A stretch of DNA of 30,189 nucleotides, taken from IMG/VR virus record IMGVR_UViG_3300034106_000164, positions 1-30,189 of that record. The stretch is one strand, 5' to 3'. This DNA comes from a virus. The notes under the pieces were generated by a model that made no database searches, had not been told where the DNA came from, and saw only the letters and a list, made by a program, of their open reading frames with translations. A program made the position numbers and the translations under genes. This document shows positions 2,697 to 29,301 of the stretch, one piece after another. Position 1 is the first letter of the stretch. Every line of letters starts with the position of its first letter.

Positions 2697-5078
2697 ATGG
2701 AACCTGCACTTTATCCTGCGCCGTTAGGTTTAGACGCCGCCATGGATGCGCCCACTGAAATTGAAATTGAGATTGAAGACCCAGAGTCAGTTGCTATATC
2801 GACGGATGGCGTAGAGATTATCTTTGAGCCAGAACGTGAACAGCCCGAAGATCATGACGCTAATCTTGCTGAATATATTGATGACCGAGAGTTATCAACG
2901 ATAGCCAGTGATTTGCTTGAAGACTTTGAGACCGATCAGTCCTCAAGGAAAGAATGGGTTGATACCTATGTCGATGGGCTAAAGCTTCTTGGTATGAAGT
3001 ATGAGGATAGGACAGAACCATGGCCTGGTGCTTGTGGTGTGTTCTATCCATTGCTATCAGAAGCGGCGGTTAGGTTTCAGGCTGAGTCCATCATGGAGAC
3101 TTTCCCTGCGTCGGGCCCTGTTAAGACTCAGATTGTTGGAAAGCTGACCAAGGAAAAGGAAGATGCAGCGGAGCGAGTAAAGGATGATATGAATTGGCGT
3201 CTGACAGAGCAGATGCCAGAGTATCGCCCTGAGCACGAAAAGATGTTGTGGTCGTTATCCTTGGCGGGATCTGCTTTTAAGAAGGTTTACTACGATCCAG
3301 CACTGGGCAGACAGGTGTCTATGTTTGTGCCGGCCGAGGATATTGTGGTTCCTTATGGCGCAAGTGATCTTAGATCTTCACCGCGTATCGCACAGATCAT
3401 GCGTAAGACTAAGAATGAGGTCAAAAAGCTCCAGCACGCAGGGTTTTATCGAGATATTGATCTAGGCGAACCGTCTGGTGTGCTCGATGACATTGAAAAA
3501 CGCAAGGCGGAAGAGCAGGGCATGTCCGCCACCATGGATGATCGGTACCGAATCATCGAAATGTGCGTGGATTTAGACCTTGCAGGGTTTGAAGATAGCG
3601 ACAAAGAGGGCCCCACGGGTATTGCTTTGCCCTATATCGTGACTATTGATAAGGGTACAAGCCAGATTTTGGCCATCAGACGCAACTGGTATGCCGATGA
3701 TCCGTTGAAATTAAAGCGGATGCACTATACCCACTACATTTACATCCCAGGTTTTGGGTTTTATGGGTTCGGTTTGATCCACTTAGTGGGTGGTTTTGCT
3801 AAATCCGGCACCTCGTTGATCCGCCAACTGGTGGATGCGGGTACGTTATCCAACCTGCCAGGTGGTTTGAAGTCCCGCGGCCTGCGAGTTAAGGGTGATG
3901 ACACGCCAATTGCCCCCGGTGAGTTCCGCGATGTGGACGTTCCATCAGGATCCATCAGGGATAACATCCTTCCGCTACCCTATAAAGAGCCAAGCCAGGT
4001 TCTATACCAGTTATTACAGACTATTGTTGATGAAGGCAGGCGTTTTGCTGCTACTGCTGATATGCAAATCAGCGATTTATCAGCAAATACCCCAGTTGGT
4101 ACGACGTTAGCAGTATTAGAACGTACATTAAAGGTAATGTCTGCGGTTCAGGCGCGTTTGCATTATTCAATGCGCCAAGAATTCAAATTATTATCTGCGA
4201 TTATCAGAGATTATCTACCGACTGAATATAATTATGATGTTGATTCGCCAATTGGCAGGGCAATTAAACAATCTGATTATGATAATGTCGATGTAATTCC
4301 TGTATCAGATCCAAATGCTACAACATTAGCGCAGCGCGTTACGCAATATCAAGCAGTATTGCAATTAGCTGCACAATCGCCGCAAATATATGATATTCCA
4401 GAGCTTCATAAACGAATGCTTGGCGTATTAGGTATTAAAGATATTGATAAATTAATACCTGTTACAAAACAATTAGAGCCACGTGATCCAGTTTCTGAGA
4501 ATATGGATATATTGGTTATGAAACCAGTAAAAGCATTTATATATCAGGATCACGAAGCGCATATTGCTGTGCATATGGCTGCATTAAATGACCCATTATT
4601 AAGACAGCAGATGCAACAAAATCCGATGGCAGGTCAAATGATGGCCTCCGCGCAGGCTCATATTAATGAGCACTTAGCATTCCTGTATCGCAGGAAGATT
4701 GAAGAGCAATTAGGTGTACCGTTACCGGCACCTAATACAACGCTTCCAGAAGACTTTGAAGTTCAGTTGTCACGCCTTACAGCGCAGGCTGCACAGCAAT
4801 TGTTGGCACAGAATAGCCAGCAGGCTCAGATGATGCAGAACATGCAGGCCCAGCAAGATCCGGTTGTGCAGATGCAGCAGGCTGAGTTGCAGATTAAGGC
4901 GCAGCGTGAGCAGCGTGAGGCCGCCATGGATGCTGCTGAGTTGCAGTTGAAGCAGCAGGCACAGGCGCAGAAGGTGATGTTAGAGCAGGAAAGAATCGCT
5001 TCTCAGGAGCGCATGAACAATCAAAACAACCAAGTCAAGATGATTGACAAGGCTGCTGATATTCAACGAGGTGGGTAA
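2697..5078 (+). CDS. Portal protein
   Basis: The portal forms the ring at one head vertex through which DNA is packaged and released. It comes directly after the terminase, with TAGGAG at 2686-2691 overlapping the terL stop and serving the ATG at 2697. At 793 residues it is in the range of large P22-type portals. Visible parts are an acidic N-terminus (20-55), a core starting near EWVDTYVDGLKLLGMKYEDR (86-105) with EPWPGACGVFYPLLSEAAVR (107-126), a helical segment GTTLAVLERTLKVMSAVQAR typical of the portal stem and crown, and a Gln/Met-rich coiled coil from about 690 to the end. Recognition rests on gene order and these patterns. Codon usage changes sharply between about 4010 and 4640, where Leu is mostly TTA, although the reading frame stays open. 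The stop overlaps the next start (TAATG). Confidence 0.85.
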   Translation: MEPALYPAPLGLDAAMDAPTEIEIEIEDPESVAISTDGVEIIFEPEREQPEDHDANLAEYIDDRELSTIASDLLEDFETDQSSRKEWVDTYVDGLKLLGMKYEDRTEPWPGACGVFYPLLSEAAVRFQAESIMETFPASGPVKTQIVGKLTKEKEDAAERVKDDMNWRLTEQMPEYRPEHEKMLWSLSLAGSAFKKVYYDPALGRQVSMFVPAEDIVVPYGASDLRSSPRIAQIMRKTKNEVKKLQHAGFYRDIDLGEPSGVLDDIEKRKAEEQGMSATMDDRYRIIEMCVDLDLAGFEDSDKEGPTGIALPYIVTIDKGTSQILAIRRNWYADDPLKLKRMHYTHYIYIPGFGFYGFGLIHLVGGFAKSGTSLIRQLVDAGTLSNLPGGLKSRGLRVKGDDTPIAPGEFRDVDVPSGSIRDNILPLPYKEPSQVLYQLLQTIVDEGRRFAATADMQISDLSANTPVGTTLAVLERTLKVMSAVQARLHYSMRQEFKLLSAIIRDYLPTEYNYDVDSPIGRAIKQSDYDNVDVIPVSDPNATTLAQRVTQYQAVLQLAAQSPQIYDIPELHKRMLGVLGIKDIDKLIPVTKQLEPRDPVSENMDILVMKPVKAFIYQDHEAHIAVHMAALNDPLLRQQMQQNPMAGQMMASAQAHINEHLAFLYRRKIEEQLGVPLPAPNTTLPEDFEVQLSRLTAQAAQQLLAQNSQQAQMMQNMQAQQDPVVQMQQAELQIKAQREQREAAMDAAELQLKQQAQAQKVMLEQERIASQERMNNQNNQVKMIDKAADIQRGG

Positions 5079-5266
5079 TGGATTTCCCCGAGGCGGTAAG
5101 CCTGGAGATAAACAAGCAAATCCGCTATGCGGAGGAACAGCTTGCCCAAGGAAGTATCAAGTCCTTTGAGGACTACAAGTACGTCTGCGGTCAGATTCAA
5201 GGTCTGTTGATCGCAAGACGCATAAACGAAGACCTTGCAAACAGAGTGAAGGATTACGATGACTGA
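5078..5266 (+). CDS. Small helical protein of unknown function, after portal
   Basis: The 62-residue product is predicted to be mostly helical, with no signal peptide or membrane segment and a neutral to acidic charge (ends VKDYDD). Its start overlaps the portal stop by one base and its stop overlaps the next gene by eight bases, so it lies between portal and co-chaperonin in a tightly coupled operon. I do not recognise the family. Small proteins at this place between portal and scaffold are common in aquatic phage genomes and may be minor head components or assembly factors, but nothing in the sequence proves this. The coding call rests on the coupled start and stop. Confidence 0.7.
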   Translation: MDFPEAVSLEINKQIRYAEEQLAQGSIKSFEDYKYVCGQIQGLLIARRINEDLANRVKDYDD

Positions 5267-5630
5267 TATGTCAGAGGCAGTAAACGAGGAAGAGCAGGCC
5301 ACGCAACTTCCAACGCCCACGGGCTATAGGATGTTATGCGCTTTACCGGAAGTAGAGGACAAGTTCTCCAACGGCATTTTGAAGCCTGACGCACTGACTA
5401 AGCTGGAAGAGTTCAGTACGGTTGTTTTATTTGTCATCAAGCAAGGTCCTGATTGTTACAAGGACGCAGCTAAGTTCCCCACGGGGCCATGGTGCAAGGA
5501 AGGTGACTTTGTGTTGGTACGTGCTTACTCGGGCACGCGATTCAAGATTCACGGAAGAGAGTTCCGCTTAATCAATGACGACACGATAGAAGGTGTCGTG
5601 GAAGATCCACGTGGCTATAGCCGCGCATAA
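5259..5630 (+). CDS. GroES-like co-chaperonin
   Basis: The 123-residue protein has the outline of the Cpn10/GroES fold after a roughly 18-residue acidic leader. GYRMLCALPEVED (22-34) matches the first beta strands. SNGILKPDALTKLEEFS (37-53) sits where GroES has its mobile loop, with NGIL in place of the conserved GGI(V/L). CKEGDFVLVRAYSG (79-92) matches the V-GD-V/I strand, and the closing FRLINDDTIEGVVED (102-116) matches the GroES C-terminus. The family caps GroEL and enlarges the folding chamber; phage versions such as T4 gp31 are needed to fold capsid proteins. Its place ahead of scaffold and capsid genes fits that role. AAGGA at 5249-5253 supports the ATG at 5259. No GroEL gene is seen, so it would use the host chaperonin. 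Confidence 0.75.
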   Translation: MTDMSEAVNEEEQATQLPTPTGYRMLCALPEVEDKFSNGILKPDALTKLEEFSTVVLFVIKQGPDCYKDAAKFPTGPWCKEGDFVLVRAYSGTRFKIHGREFRLINDDTIEGVVEDPRGYSRA

Positions 5631-5641
5631 GGGAGTTGAAG

Positions 5642-6568
5642 ATGGAAAATGAAGGAAAGATTGAGGTCGAAGTAGAAGGCGACCAAGTAGAAGTTGAGAT
5701 TGAAAATGATGCGCCGCCAGAGGATCGTAATGCGACGCCATTGAAATCAGATCCTGCTGATATTCCTGATGATGAGATTCGTCAGTATTCAGATAACGTC
5801 AAGAAACGCATCCAGCAATTAACCCATGCAAGGCATGATGAGCGCCGGACCAAGGAAGAGGCGATAAGGGAGCGTGAGGCTGCATTAGCTTACGCAAAAC
5901 AAATTGCTGATGAGAATGCACAGCTAAAAGCTAAGCTCAGTAGCGGCGAAACGACATTGATTAAAACAATGCAGATCGCCACGGAGAAGGAGCTTGATGA
6001 AGCAAAGCGTAAATACAAGGAAGCCTTATATACGGGCGATGCGGACAAGATTGCCACTGCCCAAGAGGAGTTTAGTAAGGCTGTTATTAAGGCTGAGAAG
6101 GTCAAGGGATTTAAGCCGGCTGCACAAGAGAATTTGCAACCTGTTGAAAATCAATCATATAATCAACCCACTCAATACATCGACGCTAAGGCGGACCGAT
6201 GGAAACGGCAAAACTCATGGTTTGGCCAGCCCGGTGAACCTGGTGTTGATGACGAAATGACTTACTTTGCAATGGGTCTTCACAAGAAGCTGACCCGTGA
6301 ACATGGTGAGCAGTTTGCTGCATCAGATGAGTATTACGAGCGGATAGACGCTCGCATGAAAGAGAAGTTCCCTGAGTACTTTGGCAAACAGGCCGAGCCA
6401 GAGGTTCCAAGAAGGCCTGCTACGGTGGTTGCCCCGGCATCGCGCAGCTCTCCACCTAAAAAAATAAAGCTGACAGCGTCTGAAGCCAGTATGGCCAAGC
6501 GCATTGGTGTGCCGCTAGAGGAATATGCCAAATCCATGGCAAAACTACGTATGGAAGGAAAGATATGA
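5642..6568 (+). CDS. Capsid scaffolding protein (predicted)
   Basis: The product is about 308 residues, highly charged and mostly coiled coil. It has an acidic N-terminus with repeated E-V-E-(V/I)-E segments (IEVEVEGDQVEVEIEND), then long helical heptad-like stretches (roughly residues 45-150), and a basic C-terminal end (PPKKIKLTASEASMAKRIGV). An acidic front, helical middle and basic tail that binds the capsid protein is the usual scaffold layout, and the gene lies between portal and major capsid gene. The reading frame could start at TTG 5636, but that codon touches the GGGAG at 5631-5635; the ATG at 5642 has a proper six-base spacing and is preferred. The stop overlaps the next start (ATGA). 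No protease motif is visible. The call is by context and composition. Confidence 0.7.
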   Translation: MENEGKIEVEVEGDQVEVEIENDAPPEDRNATPLKSDPADIPDDEIRQYSDNVKKRIQQLTHARHDERRTKEEAIREREAALAYAKQIADENAQLKAKLSSGETTLIKTMQIATEKELDEAKRKYKEALYTGDADKIATAQEEFSKAVIKAEKVKGFKPAAQENLQPVENQSYNQPTQYIDAKADRWKRQNSWFGQPGEPGVDDEMTYFAMGLHKKLTREHGEQFAASDEYYERIDARMKEKFPEYFGKQAEPEVPRRPATVVAPASRSSPPKKIKLTASEASMAKRIGVPLEEYAKSMAKLRMEGKI

Positions 6569-7005
6569 GCCGCGAATCCCGTGAAGTACAGACCCGTGAT
6601 AACACGGAACGTCCGAAGCAGTGGAAGCCGCCCAGCTCATTGCCTGACCCTCTGCCACGCGACGGATGGAAACATCGTTGGGTACGCACATCCATTCTTG
6701 GACAGGCAGACCCACGTAATGTAGCAACCCGGCATCAAGATGGTTTTGAACCATGCAAGTGGGAAGACTATCCAGAAGTCGCACGAGCCATGCTCGCATC
6801 CGGAACTCAAACCGGCAATATTGAGATTGGTGGATTAATGCTGTGCCGCGCCCCTGTAGAGATGGTTGATCAGCGCAACGGGTTTTACCTGAAGCAGGCC
6901 AACGATTGGATGCAGAGTGTGGATAGCAATTTCATGCGCGAAAACGACCCAAGGATGCCGCTGTTTAATGACAGACGATCTGAGGTCCGATTCGGTAAGA
7001 GATAA
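6565..7005 (+). CDS. Small virion-associated protein of unknown function, scaffold-linked
   Basis: The product is 146 residues, soluble, rich in Arg, Asp, Trp and Pro, with no signal peptide or membrane segment. The start ATG overlaps the scaffold stop as ATGA, so it is translated together with it. Notable patches are WKPPSSLPDPLPRDGWKHRW (21-40), a Trp/Pro-rich segment, and PRNVATRHQDGFEPCKWEDY, which looks like a small conserved core. I do not recognise a domain. A gene of this size between scaffold and capsid genes is often a minor head protein or assembly factor, which is inference from position only. It is followed by a short gap with the ribosome binding site TTTGGAG of the next gene. 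Confidence 0.65.
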   Translation: MSRESREVQTRDNTERPKQWKPPSSLPDPLPRDGWKHRWVRTSILGQADPRNVATRHQDGFEPCKWEDYPEVARAMLASGTQTGNIEIGGLMLCRAPVEMVDQRNGFYLKQANDWMQSVDSNFMRENDPRMPLFNDRRSEVRFGKR

Positions 7006-7026: not shown

Positions 7027-7686
7027 ATGGCTTACCCGACTGTATCAGCCCCTTATGGGCTAAAGCCGATCAATTTGATCGGTGGTCAGGTGTTTGCCGG
7101 AGCCACTCGCCAGCGTCGTATCGCATCTGGTGCTTCAAGCATTGGATTCGGAGACCCTGTTAAGTTTGCCTCGGACGGCACCATTGTTGTAACCACGGAA
7201 ACCACAACCGGCCCAGCCACTGGCTTTGCTGGCGTTTTCCTTGGATGCCAGTTTGTTTCTTCTGTAACTGGCCAACCCACATGGTCTCAATCGTGGATTA
7301 GCGGTACATCGGTAAAGGCAAATACCTTTATCTACGCTTATGTCTGCGAAGACCCTGATCAGTTGTTCCAAGTTGCCGTAGTGACTGGCACCACGGTTGT
7401 TTCGACGACCTCGGGCCTGACCTACACCAACATCAACAACAACGTGGCATTGGTAGCTAACACGCTCAATACCACGACTGGCGATTCACAGCAGGGCATC
7501 CTGTTGAGTTCGGCAGCAGTAACGGCAACGCTGCCCTTACGTATTGTTGACTTGGTGCCTGATACGGCATTTACCTACAGTGGCACGGTTTACTTCCCCG
7601 AGGCAATCGTTAAGTTCAATGCACCGAACGTAACGGGATCCGTCGTGGATGGTGGCCATGCTTACTACAACCCGACCGGACTGTAA
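7027..7686 (+). CDS. Predicted head decoration or structural protein
   Basis: The product is 219 residues, rich in Thr, Val, Gly and Ala, and almost entirely predicted beta strand, with very few charged residues. That composition is usual for capsid surface or fibre proteins. It opens with AYPTVSAPYGLKPINLIGG, an extended N-terminal arm, and continues with alternating Val/Thr/Gly strands. GGAG lies at 7015-7018, nine bases before the ATG. It sits directly upstream of the major capsid gene, and both genes share the start context ACTTAAATGGCT. Decoration proteins are often placed next to the capsid gene, so this is the best guess; a second structural protein of the head is the alternative. No specific family recognised. 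Confidence 0.6.
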   Translation: MAYPTVSAPYGLKPINLIGGQVFAGATRQRRIASGASSIGFGDPVKFASDGTIVVTTETTTGPATGFAGVFLGCQFVSSVTGQPTWSQSWISGTSVKANTFIYAYVCEDPDQLFQVAVVTGTTVVSTTSGLTYTNINNNVALVANTLNTTTGDSQQGILLSSAAVTATLPLRIVDLVPDTAFTYSGTVYFPEAIVKFNAPNVTGSVVDGGHAYYNPTGL

Positions 7687-7698
7687 GGGGAAACTTAA

Positions 7699-8607
7699 AT
7701 GGCTATTTCACGCGCACAACTACTGAAAGAGCTGCTCCCCGGCCTGAACGCATTGTTCGGTCTTGAGTACGCTCGCTATGGCGAAGAACACAAAGAGATC
7801 TACGAAACCGAGACCTCTGAGCGTTCGTTTGAAGAGGAAACCAAGCTGTCTGGATTCTCGGCCGCACCGGTCAAGAACGAAGGCTCTGCGATTGCTTATG
7901 ACAACGCACAGGAAGCTTGGACGGCTCGCTACACCCATGAGACGATCGCTATGGGCTTTTCGATTACCGAAGAGGCAATCGAAGACAACCTGTACGATTC
8001 GCTCAGCTCGCGTTATACCAAGGCACTTGCACGCGCCATGGCATACACCAAGCAGGTGAAAGCAGCAGCCGTGTTGAACAATGGATGGGCAACTACCGTT
8101 ACATACGGTGACGGCCAGTCCCTGTTCTCCACATCACATCCTCTTGTATCCGGCGGCACAAACAGCAACACGCCAGCTACCCAGGCTGACTTGAATGAAA
8201 CTTCGTTGGAAAACGCAGTCATTCAAATCGCAGGGTGGACGGACGAACGTGGTCTGTTGATCGCAGCTCGCCCACGCAAGCTCATCGTTCCTCCGAACCT
8301 CCAGTTCGTGGCAACTCGTCTGTTGGAAACCGAACTACGCGTCGGCACCAACAACAACGATATCAACGCCATCAAGAACAATGGTTCGATCCCCGAGGGA
8401 TATACCATCAACCACTTCTTGACTGACACCAACGGCTGGTTCCTTACCACCGACGTGCCCAATGGATTGAAGCACTTTGTGCGGACACCCATGCAGACTG
8501 GAATGGACGGTGACTTTGACACGGGGAACGTGCGTTACAAGGCCCGTGAGCGTTATTCCTTTGGCGTATCAGATCCGTTAGGCATCTTCGGCTCACAAGG
8601 CGCTTAA
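7699..8607 (+). CDS. Major capsid protein, Mu gpT-like
   Basis: This is the shell protein of the head. The 302-residue product resembles the Mu gpT major head subunit family: an N-terminal helix (ISRAQLLKELLPGLNALFG, residues 3-21), the segment SERSFEEETKLSGFSAAPVK, then GFSITEEAIEDNLYDSL and a helix with KALARAMAYTKQVKAAAVLN, and the family-like signature YGDGQSLFSTSHPL followed by a Gly/Ser/Asn loop. The C-terminal part (NGWFLTTDVPNGLKHFVRTP, then YKARERYSFGVSDPLGIFG) is typical of the strand-rich core ending with a conserved closing region. AGGGGA precedes the ATG at 7699. It ends the first transcription block, 28 bases ahead of a strong terminator. Encoded processing by a protease is not apparent. 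Confidence 0.85.
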   Translation: MAISRAQLLKELLPGLNALFGLEYARYGEEHKEIYETETSERSFEEETKLSGFSAAPVKNEGSAIAYDNAQEAWTARYTHETIAMGFSITEEAIEDNLYDSLSSRYTKALARAMAYTKQVKAAAVLNNGWATTVTYGDGQSLFSTSHPLVSGGTNSNTPATQADLNETSLENAVIQIAGWTDERGLLIAARPRKLIVPPNLQFVATRLLETELRVGTNNNDINAIKNNGSIPEGYTINHFLTDTNGWFLTTDVPNGLKHFVRTPMQTGMDGDFDTGNVRYKARERYSFGVSDPLGIFGSQGA

Positions 8608-8664: not shown

Positions 8665-8721
8665 TTGCCATGTAGTACCAAAAGTTATATTACAAAGCGG
8701 CTTTATATTGTTACCTGTATC

Positions 8722-8748
8722 GCAAGATTTCGAAGATTTGCATCTTGC
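8722..8748. repeat. Inverted repeat upstream of the homing endonuclease gene
   Basis: A seven-base perfect inverted repeat GCAAGAT / ATCTTGC with a 13-base loop lies in the 184-base gap between the capsid terminator region and the GIY-YIG gene. There is no following T-run, so it is not a terminator. A TATTAT box at 8760-8765 with a weak TTGCAT at 8738 (16-base spacing) could be a promoter for the endonuclease, and the repeat would then overlap its -35 region as an operator. Both ideas are weak. Confidence 0.35.
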
Positions 8749-8791
8749 CGTCCATATGGTATTATTAGCTCACACTAACCAAGGAGCTAAT

Positions 8792-9535
8792 ATGTATTAC
8801 GTCTACATCTACAAAGACCCACGTCCTACCAAGAACCAGCAGGTGGTGTACGTTGGAAAAGGGACTGGCGATCGGGACCTTTCTCATTGGTCACGCGGGT
8901 CGCACAATAAGCCATTGCAAGATTTTCTTTCGCATCTACGTCAAAGAGGCTTGGAGCCTATACGCCAGAGGGTTTTGGAAACAGATGATGAGCAAGAAGC
9001 TTTCAAAAAAGAGATAGAGCTGATTGCTTTGTACGGAAGAAGAAACATTGGCACCGGCACGCTCTTTAATCTGACGGATGGCGGGGAAGGTATTTCAGGA
9101 GCAAAAAAGACTGAGGAGCATAAAGAGATTATTAAGGCTAACTCATTAAAAAATTGGGCTGATCCTGCTTACAGAGAAAAGGTTGTTGCAGCGCAAAAGC
9201 AAGTGCAGGGCACAGAAGAAGCTCGCAGCATGAAGTCAGAAGCTAGTAAGCGGACATGGGCTGACACCGCCGTACGTAACAAAAGAACCGATGGCATAAA
9301 GCGTTCAAGGAGCACCAATCAGTCCAAACAAAAGACCAGCGATAGCGCAAAAGCCATGTGGTCCGATCCTAATTACCACGCCATGCAAGCCGCCAATAAC
9401 AAAGAGATTGCTAATCGTGAAGAAGTAAAAGCTGCCAAAAAAGCTGCTGCCAAGGCTCTTTGGGCCGATCCCGTGTGGCGGGAGAAAATGATGGCTGCAC
9501 GCAAGAAACGGATTGACTCACACCCCAATAACTGA
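8792..9535 (+). CDS. Free-standing GIY-YIG homing endonuclease
   Basis: The product is 247 residues. The GIY-YIG nuclease domain is at the N-terminus: YYVYIY (2-7) stands for GIY and VYVGKGTG (19-26) for YIG. Downstream are R28, E74 (KEIELIALYGR) as the candidate metal ligand, and FNLTDGGEG (92-100), a closing motif common in phage homing enzymes. Residues 110-247 carry four Trp-(A/S)-Asp-(P/T) units at W122, W156, W190 and W224, exactly 34 residues apart, rich in Lys/Ala and likely DNA-binding. A frame upstream to 8708 is open, but AAGGAG at 8781-8786 points to ATG 8792. It nicks or cuts DNA at a recognition site to spread itself. It sits alone between the capsid terminator and the next structural gene, typical of a free-standing mobile gene. 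The 92 bases after it hold no gene. Confidence 0.9.
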   Translation: MYYVYIYKDPRPTKNQQVVYVGKGTGDRDLSHWSRGSHNKPLQDFLSHLRQRGLEPIRQRVLETDDEQEAFKKEIELIALYGRRNIGTGTLFNLTDGGEGISGAKKTEEHKEIIKANSLKNWADPAYREKVVAAQKQVQGTEEARSMKSEASKRTWADTAVRNKRTDGIKRSRSTNQSKQKTSDSAKAMWSDPNYHAMQAANNKEIANREEVKAAKKAAAKALWADPVWREKMMAARKKRIDSHPNN

Positions 9536-12622: not shown

Positions 12623-15600
12623 ATGGCGCTGCCCGCACTCCCTTCGGACTGGGGCAGTTATGATGCTGCCCGGAAGATTAAGTGGTTCAACGATAAGGTT
12701 GTAACCATAGATGATCTTGTAGCAGCAGGCGTACCAAGGCCCGATGTGGATTGGCTGATCCAGAATGGATTGCAGCCTCTTTACCAGTTCTTTAGCATCA
12801 AGTGGAATCCAAATGCATCACTTGCTGAAAAGCAGGGTTACATCAAAACAGTCCTTGGCCAAGGCATAACCACTGATGCAATAAAAACCAGGCTCGGGGA
12901 GGTAGATCCTGTTAATGCAACGCAGGAAGTTTATGACCTGCTTGGCATACCAAAAACAACGGGCCCGACGCAGCAGGAAATAGACGCTGCATGGTATTAC
13001 GATAGTGAATCCAAGCTTTGGGGTAATTATTTAACCGGCGAGACATCGTCAACCAAGCCCGCTGCACTTACAACAACGCAGACAACAACGGCACCCCCAA
13101 CTACTACTTCCGTAACCACAACGCCACCGCCGACGACAACAGCCGGGGTATTTAAGCCATTAGGCTTAGATCTAAAAGAAGGATGGATATACGAGCCTGA
13201 GTTTGATAAACCGTTCCAAAATCCACAGACCGGTCAGAAACTAACGGCGCAAGAATACGAAGCAAACATTATCCATCCCGGTGAAACCAAGTGGGAGGGT
13301 AAGTGGCTTAACGATCAAACTATTAGTTTCCTAAAGGGTCAGATTAATAGCGGTAAATCGCTATACAACCTGAACTTTCAAACACCAGGAAACTCAGATG
13401 CTTGGCATACAGACGATATTGCCAAGCGCCTAACTGCTTTAGGTATAACAAACCTAGATCAGATTGGTGTTGATCAAACAAAAGGGATTTACAACAAAGC
13501 AACCGGTAATCCTCTCAATACGTCAATCGTAGGCGGCAAGGGTGGAAACATCATTGGCTCCACAGGGGCTGGAGCCGGTTACTCTAACTACACCATTCAG
13601 ACAGATGCTTTTGGTAGTCCAATAATTGTTCCCGAGTGGAACCAATCAAACTTTCTAGCCAAGAACCCGTTGTTAACCCAAGTGCTTGCCATGGGGGCAT
13701 CGCTCTTGGTTCCAGGGATTGGCCAGGCTATAGCCCCTTATGTAAGTAGCGTTGTAGGAGCGGCGGCCGCACCGGCTGTATCAAACTTCTTGGTACGCAC
13801 AGCAGTAAACACCATCTTTAATGGTGGCGATTTATCTAAAGCATTTTTAGGCGCCGCCACGGGTACAGCCCTGAATATGGTTACCGATGTGGTGGCCAAT
13901 GAGTTAGCTAATAGCGGAATCATCAGCGGGGCCACGGCGGCAGAAAAGCTTGCAACGGCTAGGCTTTTTGCAGGTCCAATGACCAATGCAATTTATGCCA
14001 TAGCGCAAGGTCAGGACCCATTACCAACATTGCTTGGCGGCGCGGTTAACGCTGCGATATCAACAGGCATTAATGAAGTAGCAAACGCACAGAAGCTGGA
14101 CCCAACATCAAAAGCGTTGCTACAGATTGGCGTATCGCAAGCGATTAATACGGCGCGTACAGGTAAATTCAACCCGGTAAGCCTGTTTAATCAGTTATTA
14201 AATCTTGGGTTTAACCAAGCGCAAGCAGGAAAAATGGCTGGTGGTGCAGCACCAGATTCAGCCAAATCCAATACAGCCATAGGCGCAGTGGCTGTAGATA
14301 AGAACGGTGAGCTATACACAATTGATGATGACGGCAATCGTTTGATGCTGTCTGGCAATTCTGCCGGTCGTGTGTACACACCTACCGAATGGAACTCAAT
14401 CCAAACGGCATTGAGCGCAGGTCAAGCTCAGTACGTCAATGGTCTTATCAATGCCATGAACAGTGGCACGATGAAGCCAGAAGACGTTACATCAGATCTT
14501 AAGAACGCCGGATATTCAGACGCCAAAGTAGCCGAGATATTTGCTGCAAATCAGCAGTTCGTAGACCGAGCAAAAAACACGCAACAGGTAGTAACGGACT
14601 ACACGGCGGTAGGAAGCGATCTATCCAGAGAGGGCGCTCTATCAAGGCTGAAGTCGCTTGGTTACGATGATACTGACGCCAACGCATACCTATCCAATAT
14701 TGATAAGCAAGTCACTGCTAGAAACAACTACGTTAATGTTTCTAGGGACTACATCAATGGTTCCGCCACGGAGTCGCAGTTGCAATCCGCCATGGATGCG
14801 GCTGGGCTTACTGGCGATAAGGCAGACAACACACTACTGACGCTTCGTGCAATACGAGAGGGCGGCAACCTTACATCATCTGAGTTAACGAATGCTGCTG
14901 TGGCCAACCTTAACCAGTGGTTCAACATTGGTAACGGGCGCCAAGTTGTATTCAAAACCAATACTGAAGATGGCGGGTTGTATGTAGCCAGCGCAAGGGA
15001 CGCATCGGGCAAAGACATCACCAATGACTTTTATGGTCTTAACCCACAGGGACTAAAGAACTTCATTGATGCCCAGCAGGTCATTCAAAAAACTGCGCCT
15101 ACGATCAAAGCAGGCGAAGCGACGGTGCCACAAGAGCTGGCAACGCAGGGTGCAAACCTTGGCCTTGGTGGTCAGACAGGCCTTATCAAAAACAATTTTG
15201 CTACGGTTCAAAAGAGTTACTTTGACAATCTGTTGAGAGCGTATAGCGCCATGAGCCCAGAGGATCGGGCAAAGATTGCCTCGGCGCAGGCGGCAACAAC
15301 GGATATGAAGATACTGAAGGACATAGATTCTCAGTACAAATCCATAGATCAGCAAAGGCAGGCGGCTCTCAATAACGGGCAGAAAGCCATAGCTGATTTC
15401 TTGCTAGGTGCAGATACAAGGGTAGAGAACAAAGCTTCTCATTACTACCTCACCAAAGGCGTCCAGCCAAGTACAGCCATGGGTCTTGCATTGGAAGACA
15501 TCCAGGCTGGCAATCTATACAACCGTATCAACCTATCAGAAGCCAAAGACTCTACGTTTCCATTTGCAACCCAACAATTTATTAATCAGTTCCGCGGGAC

Positions 15601-18600
15601 GCCTGCTGGCGATACGCTAGCTAATGTTCTTTCAACGGCGTATGCAGTAACAGGAAGTGCAGTAGCTAATTCTCTTAACGGTGCTTTGGGCATTAACCTG
15701 CATATAGCAGAAGCCTTGGGATTAGATTCATTCGCTAACGATTTTCGCAAACTAGCGGCCGGGATTAAAACAGCGGGTGATGATGCAATTGCTATTGCTA
15801 ATGCGAGTACAGATGCCCATAAAAACCTAATCGGCGGGCTATCAAATGCAGTAAGCGCCATTCCTTGGCTGGTAACAGGATTGGCTCCAGGTCTAATTGC
15901 CGGCGCCATGGCCACGACCTATGGCAATGAGTACATACAAGGGCGCCTAGCCGGCCTAAGCATAGAAGATGCAGGGAAGCGTGCAACGCTCATGGCGGTT
16001 GCTGAGGGTATTGGTGAGCGGATTGGTGCGGATCAGCTAGTTGGGATGCTCAAGCCATTATGGCGAAATACACCAACAGACCAGCTTGGCAAAGTTATTG
16101 GCGATTCATTAGTTACTCAGATGGCCAAATACGGAACCAAAGAGCAAATTGGTGAATTGTTGTCCTATTCATTGCAAGCTGCTGTAGACAAATCACCTGA
16201 AATAGGTCTAGCCCAAAACATGACGGGCATGGATTTTTTGAAAGGCGCTCTCGATACAATGCAACAAACGTTTGTTGCTGCTGGAGCGAACACAGGATTG
16301 GCTGTCGGCCTGCGTGGCAATATGACACCAGACAATAGCGGCTCCATAAAAGTCATATCGCCAGACGGATCCCAAGGTCTTGTTGAACTTGGAAACGGTT
16401 CTGTTATTAGAGTAGATCTACCGGATGATCTTGGGCTAAAGGTTGGTGAGCAAGTCAATGTAAACGCATTGCAAAACGATGTTGTTTACGTACCAGACAA
16501 CGTCAATGAAAAGTTTGCAAACCTACAGCAACAGGTAAATAACGCCTACCTAAACGAACTCAATAGAGCACCGACATTTGAAGAGCTTGATTTCAACGTC
16601 AAGCGATTGGCAAACGGCGTAACCCTAGATAGCGTAATTACTGAATTAAACAATACGCCACAGGGTAAGTTGCTTGACGACCAAAGAGCGTTTACATCAC
16701 AGACGGACGCTCAGATCGCAGCCAACGCAAAGTCATTACTAGACCAAGGAAAGACAACTTACGCAGACTTCAAGACTTTTATGGATAGCATGGGTCTTGC
16801 TTCTGACCGCCAGCTAAACGTACTGGACACGATCACACCAAGATCAAATGTTGCGGGGACTGTTACGTCCATTATTGGTGACAATGCAGTAGTGACTGGC
16901 ACCGATGGCCAGATGTACACCATGCTCCGTGTGGCGCCTAACAACTACCTTATGCAGGTTGGCGACCAGGTTAAGCTAGGTGTTTCCACGGTAAAGCCGA
17001 CTGCAACGCCCACGGTTGAGGTCACCACAAAGATTGCGGACGTAATTGCTGCTAGCGTATCTAAGTCAACAAGCATCAGTCTTAGCCAGTCTGTATCAGA
17101 GGCCGCGGTAAGTACATCTATATCAAAGAGTCAGAGCCTATCTGTCTCTTACTCTCAGTCTCAGTCGTTATCTGCATCAACCTCGGTATCGGTATCCGAA
17201 TCTCAATCAAAAAGCATCTCTCTTTCGCAGTCGGTATCAACGGTTGAGCTTGAAAAATCCATATCATTGAGCAAGAGCGTATCGACGTCAGTGTCCACTT
17301 CTGCGTCGCTATCGACATCCACGAGCCTATCTCAATCGGTAAGCGCATCTACGTCTACGTCTCAAAGCGTATCGACTTCAATTAGCAAAGCGGTATCGAT
17401 ATCAGAAGCTGTTTCTTTGTCTGCAAGCGTTAGTGAGCAGATGGAGAAAGACAGGCTGAAAGGCTTATCAATATCTGCGTCCTTATCGGAATCAATATCA
17501 AAAGCTGTAAGCGTTTCTGAGTCAATAAGCAAAGCAGTGTCAATATCTGAAAGCACATCAGCGTCAATAAGCACCTCACAATCAATATCCAAAGCAACTT
17601 CCATTTCGCAAAGCCTGAGCGCCTCTATTTCTCAAAGCGAGTCTGTATCTAAGGCAACGAGCATTTCCGCATCTGTTAGCGCGTCTACATCGGCATCGCT
17701 TTCTGCTTCAACATCGCAGAGTATTAGCTTGTCGCAGGAAGTAAGCAAACAGGTATCCATATCACAGAGCACATCGCAAAGCATTGCCTTGTCGCAAAGC
17801 CTCTCTCAATCGCAGGCGGTATCGGTTTCTGCGTCCGTTTCAGAGTCTGTATCTAAGTCAGTCAGCACATCGCTTTCACTCAGCCAGTCAACATCTGCTG
17901 CGCTAAGCACATCGGTATCCCAAAGCCTTAGCCTCAGTCAAAAAATGAGCGAAGATATTGTTCGTGGCCTATCAATATCCGCATCGCTAAGCGCGTCCCA
18001 ATCAGTCTCTCAATCGGTATCGAGGTTGGTTTCTGCTTCTATTAGTACAAGCCAATCCGCTTCAACGTCGCTATCTCTTTCCGAGTCAATTTCAAAAGCA
18101 ACGCAACTATCTATCTCTAATAGCTTGAGTGCTTCTGCTTCTGTCAGTCAGTCACAGTCATTATCTGCTTCACAGTCTGTGTCAAAAGCTCTATCTCAAA
18201 GCGTAAGTCAATCGCTTTCTTTAAGCGAGTCAGTCGCTCAAAGCATTAGCCAGTCATTATCACTATCAGCTCTCCAGTCACAGTCATTAAGTGTTAGCGA
18301 ACAAATTGAGAGAGATAGGGCGGTTGGTATATCAATTTCTAATTCATTAAGTCAGTCAGTATCGTTAGAGGCTAGCAAGTCACAGTCAATTTCAATTAGC
18401 ACATCGACCCAGCAGTCAATCAGCAACTCGGTGTCTTTGTCAGAAAGCGTTTCAATATCAACATATTTAAGCCAAGAAGTTTCAAGGCAGACATCGCTTA
18501 GTCAATCTCTTAGCACGGCAAATAGCTTGTCATTGAGCCTGTCACAAAGCCAATCGCTAAGCCAAAGCCTGTCTCAAACACAGACTGTTTCTATTACCCC

Positions 18601-19420
18601 TTCAATTACACAGACGGTTTCGGTTACGGAAACCATTGCGCCAACGGCAACGGTAGCCCCATCAGTCACTGAATCAATCACTCAGACGGTTACGCAATCG
18701 GTCACTGAATCAATTACTGAGGTAGTCACACAAAGCCTTACTGAGACACTGACGCCAAGCATCACCGCAACGATCACTCAGTTACCAACATTAGCGCCAA
18801 CAATTACAGCTTCAGCAACCATTACTCCAAGTATTTCTGTAACGGAGACATTTACACAAACGCCATCGCTAACGATGGTTATCACGACCACATCGTTGCC
18901 GCCTGTAACGACAACGATTACCATCCCTCCGGTAACGACTACGGAGCCTGTAACCACGGAGCAAGTAACGACGATTACCATTCCGCCGGTTACGCCTCCT
19001 CCGACTTCAGGAACGATACCCCCTGTAACGACGCCAACGATTAGCATTCCAGAGCAAACAACAACCGCGCCAGTGACCACATTGCCAGTCACAACGGCGC
19101 CGGTTACATCAGCAACAACAACATCAAAGCCACCGACGACTACAGCAAAGCCTGGTGGTTTACCTTTCCCAATATTTGGTATTCCAGCCGCCACGGGGCA
19201 GCAGAAAACTTACGTTGATTACGCACAGCCCAACGTGCCAGCACCAGAGTTTGGGCCATTTGATTTATTCAAGGCGCCCAGCTACTTGCGTCCTTTGCAA
19301 GATACTGGCAACTTTGGGTTAGCCGCACTATTAGGAGCCGCAAATGCGAAGCAGTCGGGGGATGGGAATAATCAATCCCAGCAAAATGCCGAAGGCCAAG
19401 GTCAAGCCCCGAAGGGATGA
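12623..19420 (+). CDS. Giant 2265-residue virion protein with serine-rich repeats
   Basis: This is the longest gene in the window and is not assigned to a known family. From the N-terminus: a mixed region (1-140), a Thr/Pro-rich linker (about 143-172), an Ala/Gly-rich hydrophobic segment (349-396, NPLLTQVLAMGASLLVPGIG and on), a long helical middle, a second hydrophobic stretch (about 1073-1102), a beta unit GLVELGNGSVIRVDLPDDLG with VGEQVNV (about 1240-1285), a DUF4214-like helical unit (1305-1355, NELNRAPTFEELDFNVKRLA), a similar beta unit ending VGDQVKL (about 1412-1458), 508 residues of alternating Ser-x (1478-1985), a Thr/Pro/Val stalk (1986-2178) and a short C-terminal part. Position and hydrophobic segments suggest a large internal or ejection-type virion protein; the Ser/Thr stretches look adhesin-like. 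No Shine-Dalgarno is clear at 12623. Confidence 0.75.
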   Translation: MALPALPSDWGSYDAARKIKWFNDKVVTIDDLVAAGVPRPDVDWLIQNGLQPLYQFFSIKWNPNASLAEKQGYIKTVLGQGITTDAIKTRLGEVDPVNATQEVYDLLGIPKTTGPTQQEIDAAWYYDSESKLWGNYLTGETSSTKPAALTTTQTTTAPPTTTSVTTTPPPTTTAGVFKPLGLDLKEGWIYEPEFDKPFQNPQTGQKLTAQEYEANIIHPGETKWEGKWLNDQTISFLKGQINSGKSLYNLNFQTPGNSDAWHTDDIAKRLTALGITNLDQIGVDQTKGIYNKATGNPLNTSIVGGKGGNIIGSTGAGAGYSNYTIQTDAFGSPIIVPEWNQSNFLAKNPLLTQVLAMGASLLVPGIGQAIAPYVSSVVGAAAAPAVSNFLVRTAVNTIFNGGDLSKAFLGAATGTALNMVTDVVANELANSGIISGATAAEKLATARLFAGPMTNAIYAIAQGQDPLPTLLGGAVNAAISTGINEVANAQKLDPTSKALLQIGVSQAINTARTGKFNPVSLFNQLLNLGFNQAQAGKMAGGAAPDSAKSNTAIGAVAVDKNGELYTIDDDGNRLMLSGNSAGRVYTPTEWNSIQTALSAGQAQYVNGLINAMNSGTMKPEDVTSDLKNAGYSDAKVAEIFAANQQFVDRAKNTQQVVTDYTAVGSDLSREGALSRLKSLGYDDTDANAYLSNIDKQVTARNNYVNVSRDYINGSATESQLQSAMDAAGLTGDKADNTLLTLRAIREGGNLTSSELTNAAVANLNQWFNIGNGRQVVFKTNTEDGGLYVASARDASGKDITNDFYGLNPQGLKNFIDAQQVIQKTAPTIKAGEATVPQELATQGANLGLGGQTGLIKNNFATVQKSYFDNLLRAYSAMSPEDRAKIASAQAATTDMKILKDIDSQYKSIDQQRQAALNNGQKAIADFLLGADTRVENKASHYYLTKGVQPSTAMGLALEDIQAGNLYNRINLSEAKDSTFPFATQQFINQFRGTPAGDTLANVLSTAYAVTGSAVANSLNGALGINLHIAEALGLDSFANDFRKLAAGIKTAGDDAIAIANASTDAHKNLIGGLSNAVSAIPWLVTGLAPGLIAGAMATTYGNEYIQGRLAGLSIEDAGKRATLMAVAEGIGERIGADQLVGMLKPLWRNTPTDQLGKVIGDSLVTQMAKYGTKEQIGELLSYSLQAAVDKSPEIGLAQNMTGMDFLKGALDTMQQTFVAAGANTGLAVGLRGNMTPDNSGSIKVISPDGSQGLVELGNGSVIRVDLPDDLGLKVGEQVNVNALQNDVVYVPDNVNEKFANLQQQVNNAYLNELNRAPTFEELDFNVKRLANGVTLDSVITELNNTPQGKLLDDQRAFTSQTDAQIAANAKSLLDQGKTTYADFKTFMDSMGLASDRQLNVLDTITPRSNVAGTVTSIIGDNAVVTGTDGQMYTMLRVAPNNYLMQVGDQVKLGVSTVKPTATPTVEVTTKIADVIAASVSKSTSISLSQSVSEAAVSTSISKSQSLSVSYSQSQSLSASTSVSVSESQSKSISLSQSVSTVELEKSISLSKSVSTSVSTSASLSTSTSLSQSVSASTSTSQSVSTSISKAVSISEAVSLSASVSEQMEKDRLKGLSISASLSESISKAVSVSESISKAVSISESTSASISTSQSISKATSISQSLSASISQSESVSKATSISASVSASTSASLSASTSQSISLSQEVSKQVSISQSTSQSIALSQSLSQSQAVSVSASVSESVSKSVSTSLSLSQSTSAALSTSVSQSLSLSQKMSEDIVRGLSISASLSASQSVSQSVSRLVSASISTSQSASTSLSLSESISKATQLSISNSLSASASVSQSQSLSASQSVSKALSQSVSQSLSLSESVAQSISQSLSLSALQSQSLSVSEQIERDRAVGISISNSLSQSVSLEASKSQSISISTSTQQSISNSVSLSESVSISTYLSQEVSRQTSLSQSLSTANSLSLSLSQSQSLSQSLSQTQTVSITPSITQTVSVTETIAPTATVAPSVTESITQTVTQSVTESITEVVTQSLTETLTPSITATITQLPTLAPTITASATITPSISVTETFTQTPSLTMVITTTSLPPVTTTITIPPVTTTEPVTTEQVTTITIPPVTPPPTSGTIPPVTTPTISIPEQTTTAPVTTLPVTTAPVTSATTTSKPPTTTAKPGGLPFPIFGIPAATGQQKTYVDYAQPNVPAPEFGPFDLFKAPSYLRPLQDTGNFGLAALLGAANAKQSGDGNNQSQQNAEGQGQAPKG
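17054..18577 (+). repeat. Coding serine-rich repeat, 508 residues of alternating Ser-x
   Basis: Every second residue is Ser for most of residues 1478-1985 of the giant protein, with Ile, Leu, Val, Ala, Thr, Gln, Lys or Glu in between (SISLSQSVS, SASTSVSVSESQSKS). All six Ser codons are used, so the DNA is far less repetitive than the protein. Three charged interruptions break the pattern, EQMEKDRLKG (1605-1614), QKMSEDIVRG (1773-1782) and EQIERDRAVG (1893-1902), each followed by a Ser-Ile-Ser run. Strict alternation fits an extended strand with one Ser face. It resembles serine-rich bacterial adhesins in composition. Confidence 0.85.
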
Positions 19421-28457: not shown

Positions 28458-28712
28458 ATGACTACAAAGACATATCGCTTTCTAGGCATTGATACAGCCA
28501 TGCACTTACTTCGTCCAGGTGCGAAGTGGGAAATATCAAACAACGTCTTTACTCGGTGGGATGATCCACGGCCATGCCCTTCCATAGAAGAAGTGTATTG
28601 GGTCATTGACAAGATCAGAGAGTTTGAGGACAGCATCCCAACGATCTATACCGACGAGCAGTTAAAAGAGATGGGCATAGCCAAAGAGGAATTTGAACGT
28701 GCAGTTGCATAA
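28458..28712 (+). CDS. Small protein, possible tail-fibre assembly factor
   Basis: The product is 84 residues and acidic. The layout, an N-terminal strand then LRPGAKWEISNNVFTRWDDP and PCPSIEEVYWVIDKIREFED, recalls XkdW-like and fibre-assembly proteins, where a P-(S/T)-x-E-(E)-(V/I) segment follows a W-x-D turn. Similar small proteins sit directly after fibre and adhesin genes in many phages. It starts one base after the adhesin stop, with no Shine-Dalgarno visible, and overlaps the next gene by 14 bases. The match is weak; a chaperone for the neighbouring adhesin is the best guess. Confidence 0.45.
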   Translation: MTTKTYRFLGIDTAMHLLRPGAKWEISNNVFTRWDDPRPCPSIEEVYWVIDKIREFEDSIPTIYTDEQLKEMGIAKEEFERAVA

Positions 28713-29301
28713 CCTATTCCCCATACCTGTAGGCTTTGCAGAGCTTGGCAGACCCTTGAGCGATGAGGAGTTGTTCTTCATCCGTGAGTTGCCAACAAGA
28801 CCCAACATGGGTAACACTACAAGCACGAACAACTTTGTGCTGCGTGATCCTGCGCTGACCTCACTGCGTTCGTTTGTAGAAGATGCAGTGTCGGATTACT
28901 TCAAAAGCACAGTCAATCCCAAGCACAACGTAAGCCTACGAGTCACGCAAAGTTGGTGTAACTACTCGGAACCTGGGCAATACCATCACAAACACGCACA
29001 TCCAAACAGCTACATCTCAGGCGTGTTTTATGTGCAGACTAACGCTGATGACAGGATTTACTTCTACCGTGATGGCTGGCAGCAGATCAAGTTTCCCACC
29101 GATAACTGGAATGCGTATAACTCAGAGTCCTGGTGGTTTGAAGTATTCACTGGCCGATTGATTCTTTTCCCCTCATCCTTGACGCACATGGTTCCGACCA
29201 TTCAGGGTGAGCAGACACGCATATCGCTATCGTTTAACACGTTTCCCGTTGGCACAGTTGGCGAGGAAATGGATTTAACTGGTCTTAAGCTGGAGGCATA
29301 G
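28699..29301 (+). CDS. Putative 2OG-Fe(II) oxygenase family protein
   Basis: The product is 200 residues from GTG 28699; a TTG at 28693 is also in frame, but AGAGG at 28685-28689 spaces better to the GTG. Features of the 2-oxoglutarate-Fe(II) oxygenase family (PF13759-like) are YHHKHAHPNSYISGVFYV with candidate iron ligands H99 and H101, the distal FPSSLTHMV with H163, and R174 in QTRISLSFN, which would hold 2-oxoglutarate. The N-terminus LHNLFPIPVG also fits. It sits among fibre genes, where such proteins are common in marine phages; the substrate is unknown, and a modification of virion protein or a structural use of the fold are both possible. Confidence 0.75.
   Translation: MQLHNLFPIPVGFAELGRPLSDEELFFIRELPTRPNMGNTTSTNNFVLRDPALTSLRSFVEDAVSDYFKSTVNPKHNVSLRVTQSWCNYSEPGQYHHKHAHPNSYISGVFYVQTNADDRIYFYRDGWQQIKFPTDNWNAYNSESWWFEVFTGRLILFPSSLTHMVPTIQGEQTRISLSFNTFPVGTVGEEMDLTGLKLEA

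Follow-up and report, generated by a model that had tools for sequence, protein, structure and literature searches.

The window analysed here, the whole stretch of DNA under study, is a virus record of 30,189 bases. An open reading frame at positions 5259-5630 (plus strand, as for every gene of the block described here) encodes a 123-residue protein of the GroES (Cpn10) co-chaperonin family, and lies between the portal gene and the major capsid gene. The portal (head-tail connecting) protein of 793 amino acids (2697-5078; phrog_1216, E = 4.8e-31) forms the upstream border of the block and is homologous to the portals of HTVC023P, Pag-Yong1 and other phages. A small conserved protein of 62 amino acids follows (5078-5266), and its stop codon overlaps the start of groES. 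Downstream of groES is a scaffold-like protein (5636-6568; phrog_28737, E = 4.5e-38) of 310 amino acids if read from a TTG, with an ATG two codons in; its position and acidic composition suggest a role as scaffold. Two conserved module proteins of 146 and 219 amino acids come next, both matching families of unknown function (6565-7005, phrog_36003, E = 5.5e-34; 7027-7686, phrog_37556, E = 1.5e-6). The block ends with a Mu gpT-like major capsid protein of 302 amino acids at 7699-8607. A capsid gene had been placed there by the initial annotation, and matches to Pfam Phage_capsid_4 (E = 5.3e-15), Mu-like_gpT (E = 1.7e-12) and the major head protein family phrog_371 (E = 7.3e-26) bear this out.

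Several other features of the window lie outside this block. The large terminase gene (163-2688) contains an intein of 341 residues (427-1449) that sits inside the ATPase motif, between PRH and TKSE, and matches a LAGLIDADG homing endonuclease. Uninterrupted sites of the PRHTKSE type number 74 among the loci that we fetched, near-identical loci included. Directly downstream of the capsid gene, 8708-9535 encodes a homing-endonuclease-like protein (phrog_314, E = 3.9e-17, with a weak GIY-YIG match). Farther along are an open reading frame of 2265 amino acids that contains a long run of serine-rich repeats and whose end is rich in threonine (12623-19420) and a putative 2OG-Fe(II) oxygenase (28693-29301; PF13759, E = 5.3e-22).

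Membership of the 5259-5630 product in the GroES/Cpn10 family, claimed in the initial annotation, is confirmed by homology and by the predicted fold. Residues 19-115 match phrog_3188 ('co-chaperonin GroES', E = 3.4e-10), as do all 82 representative relatives. The match to Pfam Cpn10 (PF00166, E = 3.7e-4) is borderline, with 20.9 bits against a cut-off of 21.1, and reaches 21.2 bits when the frame is read together with its neighbours. A single-sequence search of the Protein Data Bank already listed co-chaperonin chains (best E = 4.7e-5), and a profile made from 20 relatives found Cpn20 (chloroplast-type) best at 2e-18, Thermus GroES at 1.2e-12 and E. coli GroES at 1.5e-4; the gp31 chain of phage T4 was absent from the 18 matches of this profile, which extended to E values of 10. 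An AlphaFold model built with the 82 relatives (mean pLDDT 87, pTM 0.76) resembled both of the proteins with which a structural comparison had been proposed. The best solved structures were GroES/Cpn10 chains (Z up to 9.8), and gp31 was matched both in its complex with GroEL (2cgt; Z 8.1, rmsd 2.1 over 71 residues) and free (1g31; Z 7.5). Foldseek concurred with a GroES-type fold, and models named co-chaperonin GroES headed the matches in the viral library.

We find it hardly credible that the likeness to GroES arose by chance, or that the protein is a barrel of the alcohol-dehydrogenase type and no co-chaperonin. The Pfam score does lie right at the cut-off, and dehydrogenase domains are present in the list of structure matches. 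However, these barrels rank below the co-chaperonins, with Z of 6.1 or less compared to 7.3-9.8, and both the matches of phrog_3188 to every one of the 82 members and the reach of the family profile to Cpn20, Thermus GroES and E. coli GroES argue against chance. As far as sequence and predicted fold allow, chance and a dehydrogenase barrel are ruled out. We file the protein as a member of the family on homology and fold, and as no more than a possible functional equivalent of a canonical GroEL lid.

The start of groES is closely tied to the small gene before it. groES opens with an ATG that is preceded, with five bases between, by AAGGA at 5249-5253, and this arrangement together with the overlap with the upstream stop codon indicates that the two genes are probably coupled in translation. 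The 62-residue protein is predicted to form a two-helix hairpin (helices 3-23 and 30-61, mean pLDDT 94.7), and family and profile searches, Pfam and PHROGs among them, returned no confident known family for it. Of the 226 plus-strand loci whose upstream sequence exceeds 330 nt, 222 have a homologue immediately before groES; the count covers plus-strand loci, and the homologue was missed in L150, L003, L170 and L168. Together these loci represent 188 different GroES sequences, counting that of the window, and many of them were gathered with GroES as bait.

The aquatic tailed phages related to HTVC023P and Pag-Yong1 form a large lineage, and GroES is part of their capsid module. The overall order of genes from portal to capsid is shared with Pag-Yong1, HTVC023P, DSL-LC04, Caulobacter phage RW, Alcaligenes phage QDWS535 and three Manatee Spring phages, MW202785, MW202796 and MW202545. 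HTVC023P, DSL-LC04 and RW have additional small genes between portal and GroES, and QDWS535 has no small ORF annotated there. The order is also that of MinM2, where it runs across the two ends of the record; in the part compared, MinM2 and Pag-Yong1 are identical. The portal gene lies about 9-10 kb off in CRP-902 and MW202675, both of which keep the small ORF beside groES and these two genes together with the capsid block. In two records of more distant phages the Cpn10 gene is elsewhere, near a gene for single-stranded DNA-binding protein in MW202601 and upstream of the terminase in vir526, and these two genes may be independent acquisitions.

Some of this was known. GroES is part of the 13-gene core of HTVC023P-type genomes (n = 82; PMC9599517), it is annotated in Roseobacter phages CRP-901 and CRP-902, and it appears in a figure legend of PMC10149686. 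Thus, a phage GroES in a capsid module, as first stated for this window, is already known in kind. HTVC023P-type pelagiphages and the Planktothrix phage Pag-Yong1 carry proteins of the same GroES family (33-50% identity) and, like the window, have a homologous capsid protein and a GroES gene ahead of a scaffold-like gene.

Named phages that share the capsid protein also carry a Cpn10 gene. All 13 such records searched (28-75% identity in the capsid protein; MinM2 and Pag-Yong1, identical in the part compared, count as one) have a Cpn10 match above the Pfam cut-off, and in 11 of the 13 the gene lies ahead of the capsid block. The same search found Cpn10 in none of 11 control phages that have a related terminase and no match to the capsid protein of the window, these controls having been selected manually among 40 rows spread across the 2434 terminase matches. 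Counted over all 22 capsid-sharing phage records, GroES was shown in 20, the search having covered all but MW202604 and MT836833 (a 10.8-kb fragment).

Viral contigs gathered with the capsid protein as bait have the same arrangement. We took the best 80 of at least 598 matches, all with at least 84% identity to the capsid protein of the window, and these contigs are close relatives and not independent of one another. In 62 of them the portal is found upstream, and GroES lies between portal and capsid in all 62. The 18 contigs with no portal detected upstream were left uncounted; seven of them have GroES and 11 do not. In ten of these 11 contigs the sequence before the capsid gene is at most 2116 nt long; in the last, L239, it is 2675 nt long. 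On that contig, a frame resembling an HNH endonuclease (1-540) just ahead of the scaffold-like gene fills the stretch up to the contig end, so L239 counts neither for nor against GroES. This frame, situated at the expected groES end, is another sign of homing elements that target the capsid module.

The initial proposal that a phage protein of the GroES family is tied to the capsid genes is upheld by family and fold, by the contrast between capsid-sharing records and controls, and by the contigs. These results also bear on what the protein does. It could be a plain substitute for GroES that raises the supply of co-chaperonin during infection and helps folding generally without favouring the capsid protein. 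A GroES-family fold and family matches are what such a substitute would show, the capsid protein fits a normal cage, and two records keep Cpn10 away from the capsid block. Nonetheless, we think this explanation unlikely. That the gene precedes the capsid block in 11 of the 13 named records and in all 62 contigs, and that Cpn10 is absent from the 11 controls, points to a role specific to the module, and the lysine in the mobile loop (described below) would weaken a plain substitute.

Any lid needs a chamber, and the phage records searched do not appear to supply one. Each of 15 long viral contigs (47-67 kb) has one Cpn10 match, above the cut-off in nine. A search for Cpn60/GroEL found none in the 13 capsid-sharing phage records and none in these 15 contigs, which are possibly fragments. 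On these records we rejected a groEL partner gene carried by the phage, and GroEL of the host is thus the likely partner of the lid.

The part of GroES that touches GroEL is one place where the lineage departs from its cellular counterparts. The mobile-loop segment of the window protein, residues 35-52 (5361-5414; KFSNGILKPDALTKLEEF), is about four residues longer than that of cellular GroES. From residue 35 to residue 63 there are 28 positions in 55 of the 82 relatives and 29-31 in the other 27, compared to 24 in 60 of 61 cellular GroES sequences; a span of 28 is also found in 7 of 12 outgroup phage sequences. The codon at 5382-5384 specifies K42, which aligns with L27 of E. coli GroES, the third of the residues that contact GroEL. 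In E. coli GroES, according to PMC5575113, I25, V26 and L27 make contact with GroEL, residues 25 and 27 are mostly Ile and Leu and sometimes Met, and either L27A or L27D abolishes GroEL binding, the Kd rising from 3.8 nM to above 5 µM with the change to Ala. In the window protein, I40 and L41 fit this hydrophobic pattern and K42 departs from it, so that the contact tripeptide is not that of a canonical lid.

The lysine is a property of the lineage and not of this one protein. Site 42 is K in 73 of the 82 representatives, with M in three, R in three, L in two and I in one. It is never K in the 61 cellular sequences (I in 53, L in 8), a set that consists of the best-scoring loci of two phyla and so favours canonical GroES, and from which 5 of 68 loci (L266-L270; two with K, three with M) were removed by eye as phage-type, two duplicate rows were merged, and L271 was retained though atypical and long-branched. 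Nor is it K in any of the 12 outgroup phage sequences (L in 8, I in 3, R in 1), two of which are Cpn10 genes outside the capsid block and one of which, from the Alcaligenes phage, has a poorly aligning loop. The third loop residue is L in HTVC023P, R in Pag-Yong1 and K in the lineage of the window. Five of the 13 named or cultured phage GroES records were aligned, and none has lysine at the third site. On a tree built without the loop columns, site 42 requires at least six changes among K, R and hydrophobic residues. Residue 40 is I, L or V in all 82 representatives and residue 41 is hydrophobic or aromatic in 79. The retention of these two residues, together with lysine in 73 of 82, suggests selection and not decay.

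The initial annotation had also called the loop diverged, on the grounds of an NGIL motif. This motif is near normal: at the corresponding sites most of the 61 cellular rows show G or S followed by G and by I or L. The loop has indeed diverged, in K42 and in its four or so extra residues. Searches of the open-licence literature turned up no published statement about lysine in phage GroES loops, and within that scope the lysine at the third contact site of this lineage may be undescribed. Nor did we find an experiment on any member of the lineage.

The two ends of the protein differ in how well they are conserved. The acidic leader noted at first is present in the window protein, and it is not a conserved feature: across the 82 representatives, with start codons chosen by script, the leader varies from 8 to 55 residues in length and from -7 to +3 in net charge. 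At the other end is a motif, D116-PRG-xx-R122 (5604-5624), that lies past the end of E. coli GroES, which aligns structurally only up to residue 116 of the window protein. DPRGxxR is nearly invariant, with P117 in 82 of 82 representatives, R118 in 79, G119 in 80 and R122 in 80. HTVC023P GroES is without the PRGxxR motif that is kept in the lineage of the window. Overall, the window protein is like cellular GroES in fold, domain layout, roof segment and the hydrophobic residues at the first two contact sites, and its lineage differs from cellular GroES in the longer loop, the lysine, the extra C-terminal motif and the lack of groEL in the same record.

The sequences do not point to a recent origin from a host. 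In a tree of GroES proteins, a branch with an SH-aLRT support of 87 separates the 82 lineage sequences from the 61 cellular rows. The alignment behind it is short and weakly resolved and the branches are long, and to the extent that such a tree can, this split argues against a recent capture of a host groES. At least 20 of 61 Bacteroidota-phylum genomes have a second, divergent Cpn10-like protein besides GroES (L332-L351). This paralogue was considered as the source and rejected: of the 20 fetched, 19 matched and 18 had a legible loop, and all 18 have L at the third site.

The phages that carry the module infect a variety of hosts. Recorded hosts include cyanobacteria, Pelagibacter, Roseobacter, Caulobacter and Alcaligenes, and relatives were also found on four genome-collection contigs whose MAG labels are Chitinophagales, Rhodocyclaceae, Cytophagaceae and Porticoccaceae. 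The Chitinophagales contig (83.8 kb; L088, L353-L357) holds its GroES relative among phage genes and passes from these into genes of Bacteroidota type, PorP/SprF among them. A tyrosine integrase was looked for on this contig and not found; the contig could be a prophage or the product of chimeric assembly. On the contig labelled Porticoccaceae the two ends match over 2.6 kb, a pattern that a circular or redundant phage genome would give. A phage record whose stated host is Methanomicrobiales (L174) has an annotated 10 kDa chaperonin upstream of the terminase (12827-13183, minus strand), and archaeal viruses may therefore carry such lids too. No cultured member of the lysine lineage was met among the phage records matched.

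Most of what is known in detail about phage-encoded lids of GroEL comes from T4. The window protein shares with gp31 its fold, its being encoded by a phage and its tie to capsid production, and gp31 is the functional precedent for a phage co-chaperonin in the making of capsids (PMC6318259). The same paper describes a lengthened mobile loop in gp31 as well, 22 residues compared to 16. The analogy, which was drawn in the initial annotation, holds for fold and lengthened loop and fails for the roof and the cage. gp31 is described there as lacking roof loops, and its client gp23 as a protein of about 56 kDa. In contrast, the roof segment of the window protein is full length (20 positions in 81 of 82 members; in cellular GroES, 19 in 49 of 61 and 18 in 10 of 61) and the capsid protein has 302 amino acids. 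With the roof kept and a smaller capsid protein, the enlarged-cage argument made for gp31 does not transfer. The need for a dedicated lid is not obvious, since the capsid protein is small enough for the ordinary GroEL-GroES cage. As general background, head assembly of phage Mu depends on host GroEL and GroES; a literature search that joined the Mu head and gpT with GroEL found no paper.

Since L27A and L27D destroy binding to GroEL in E. coli, a lysine at this site could mean that there is no normal GroEL binding. One possibility is that the protein has kept the GroES fold and does not use GroEL at all, acting instead as a direct assembly chaperone or as a ring in the head, perhaps together with the 62-residue helical protein. 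The replacement of a residue that E. coli GroES needs for binding, the conserved C-terminal motif past the end of E. coli GroES, and the tight linkage to a small protein of unknown function would all be consistent with this. However, the loop is still GroES-like, with a hydrophobic pair before the lysine, the third site in the outgroup phages holds L or I in 11 of 12 and R in the remaining one, and a conserved mobile loop is not expected in a protein with no GroEL partner. We consider a GroEL-free role very unlikely. A more general statement is doubtful, though worth keeping in view: that the co-chaperonin of this lineage has lost the standard grip on GroEL and evolved a charged one, and either pairs only with a matching host GroEL, on which it cycles fast and weakly, or forms a GroEL-free, capsid-specific chaperone ring with the 62-residue protein.

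Based on these comparisons, we favour with fair confidence a lid for host GroEL that is encoded by the phage and dedicated to the capsid module as the best explanation for the gene. The protein would assemble into a seven-fold lid, dock on GroEL of the host through its mobile loop, and close the folding chamber over one of the module's proteins, with the major capsid protein as the likeliest candidate client. The lysine gives a specific reason to doubt that the window protein would bind GroEL. We postulate that K42 probably tunes the grip: its aliphatic arm would keep part of the contact, and its charge would pair with an acidic residue in the apical domain of host GroEL or would speed release. 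Perhaps the extra loop residues make up for the lysine.

The lysine lineage is a natural counter-example to the rule that the mutants of E. coli GroES suggest. Either contact with GroEL can be made through a lysine, or these lids work differently. Because the lid is found in the capsid module across phages of diverse hosts, dependence on GroEL can be tested in cultured relatives.
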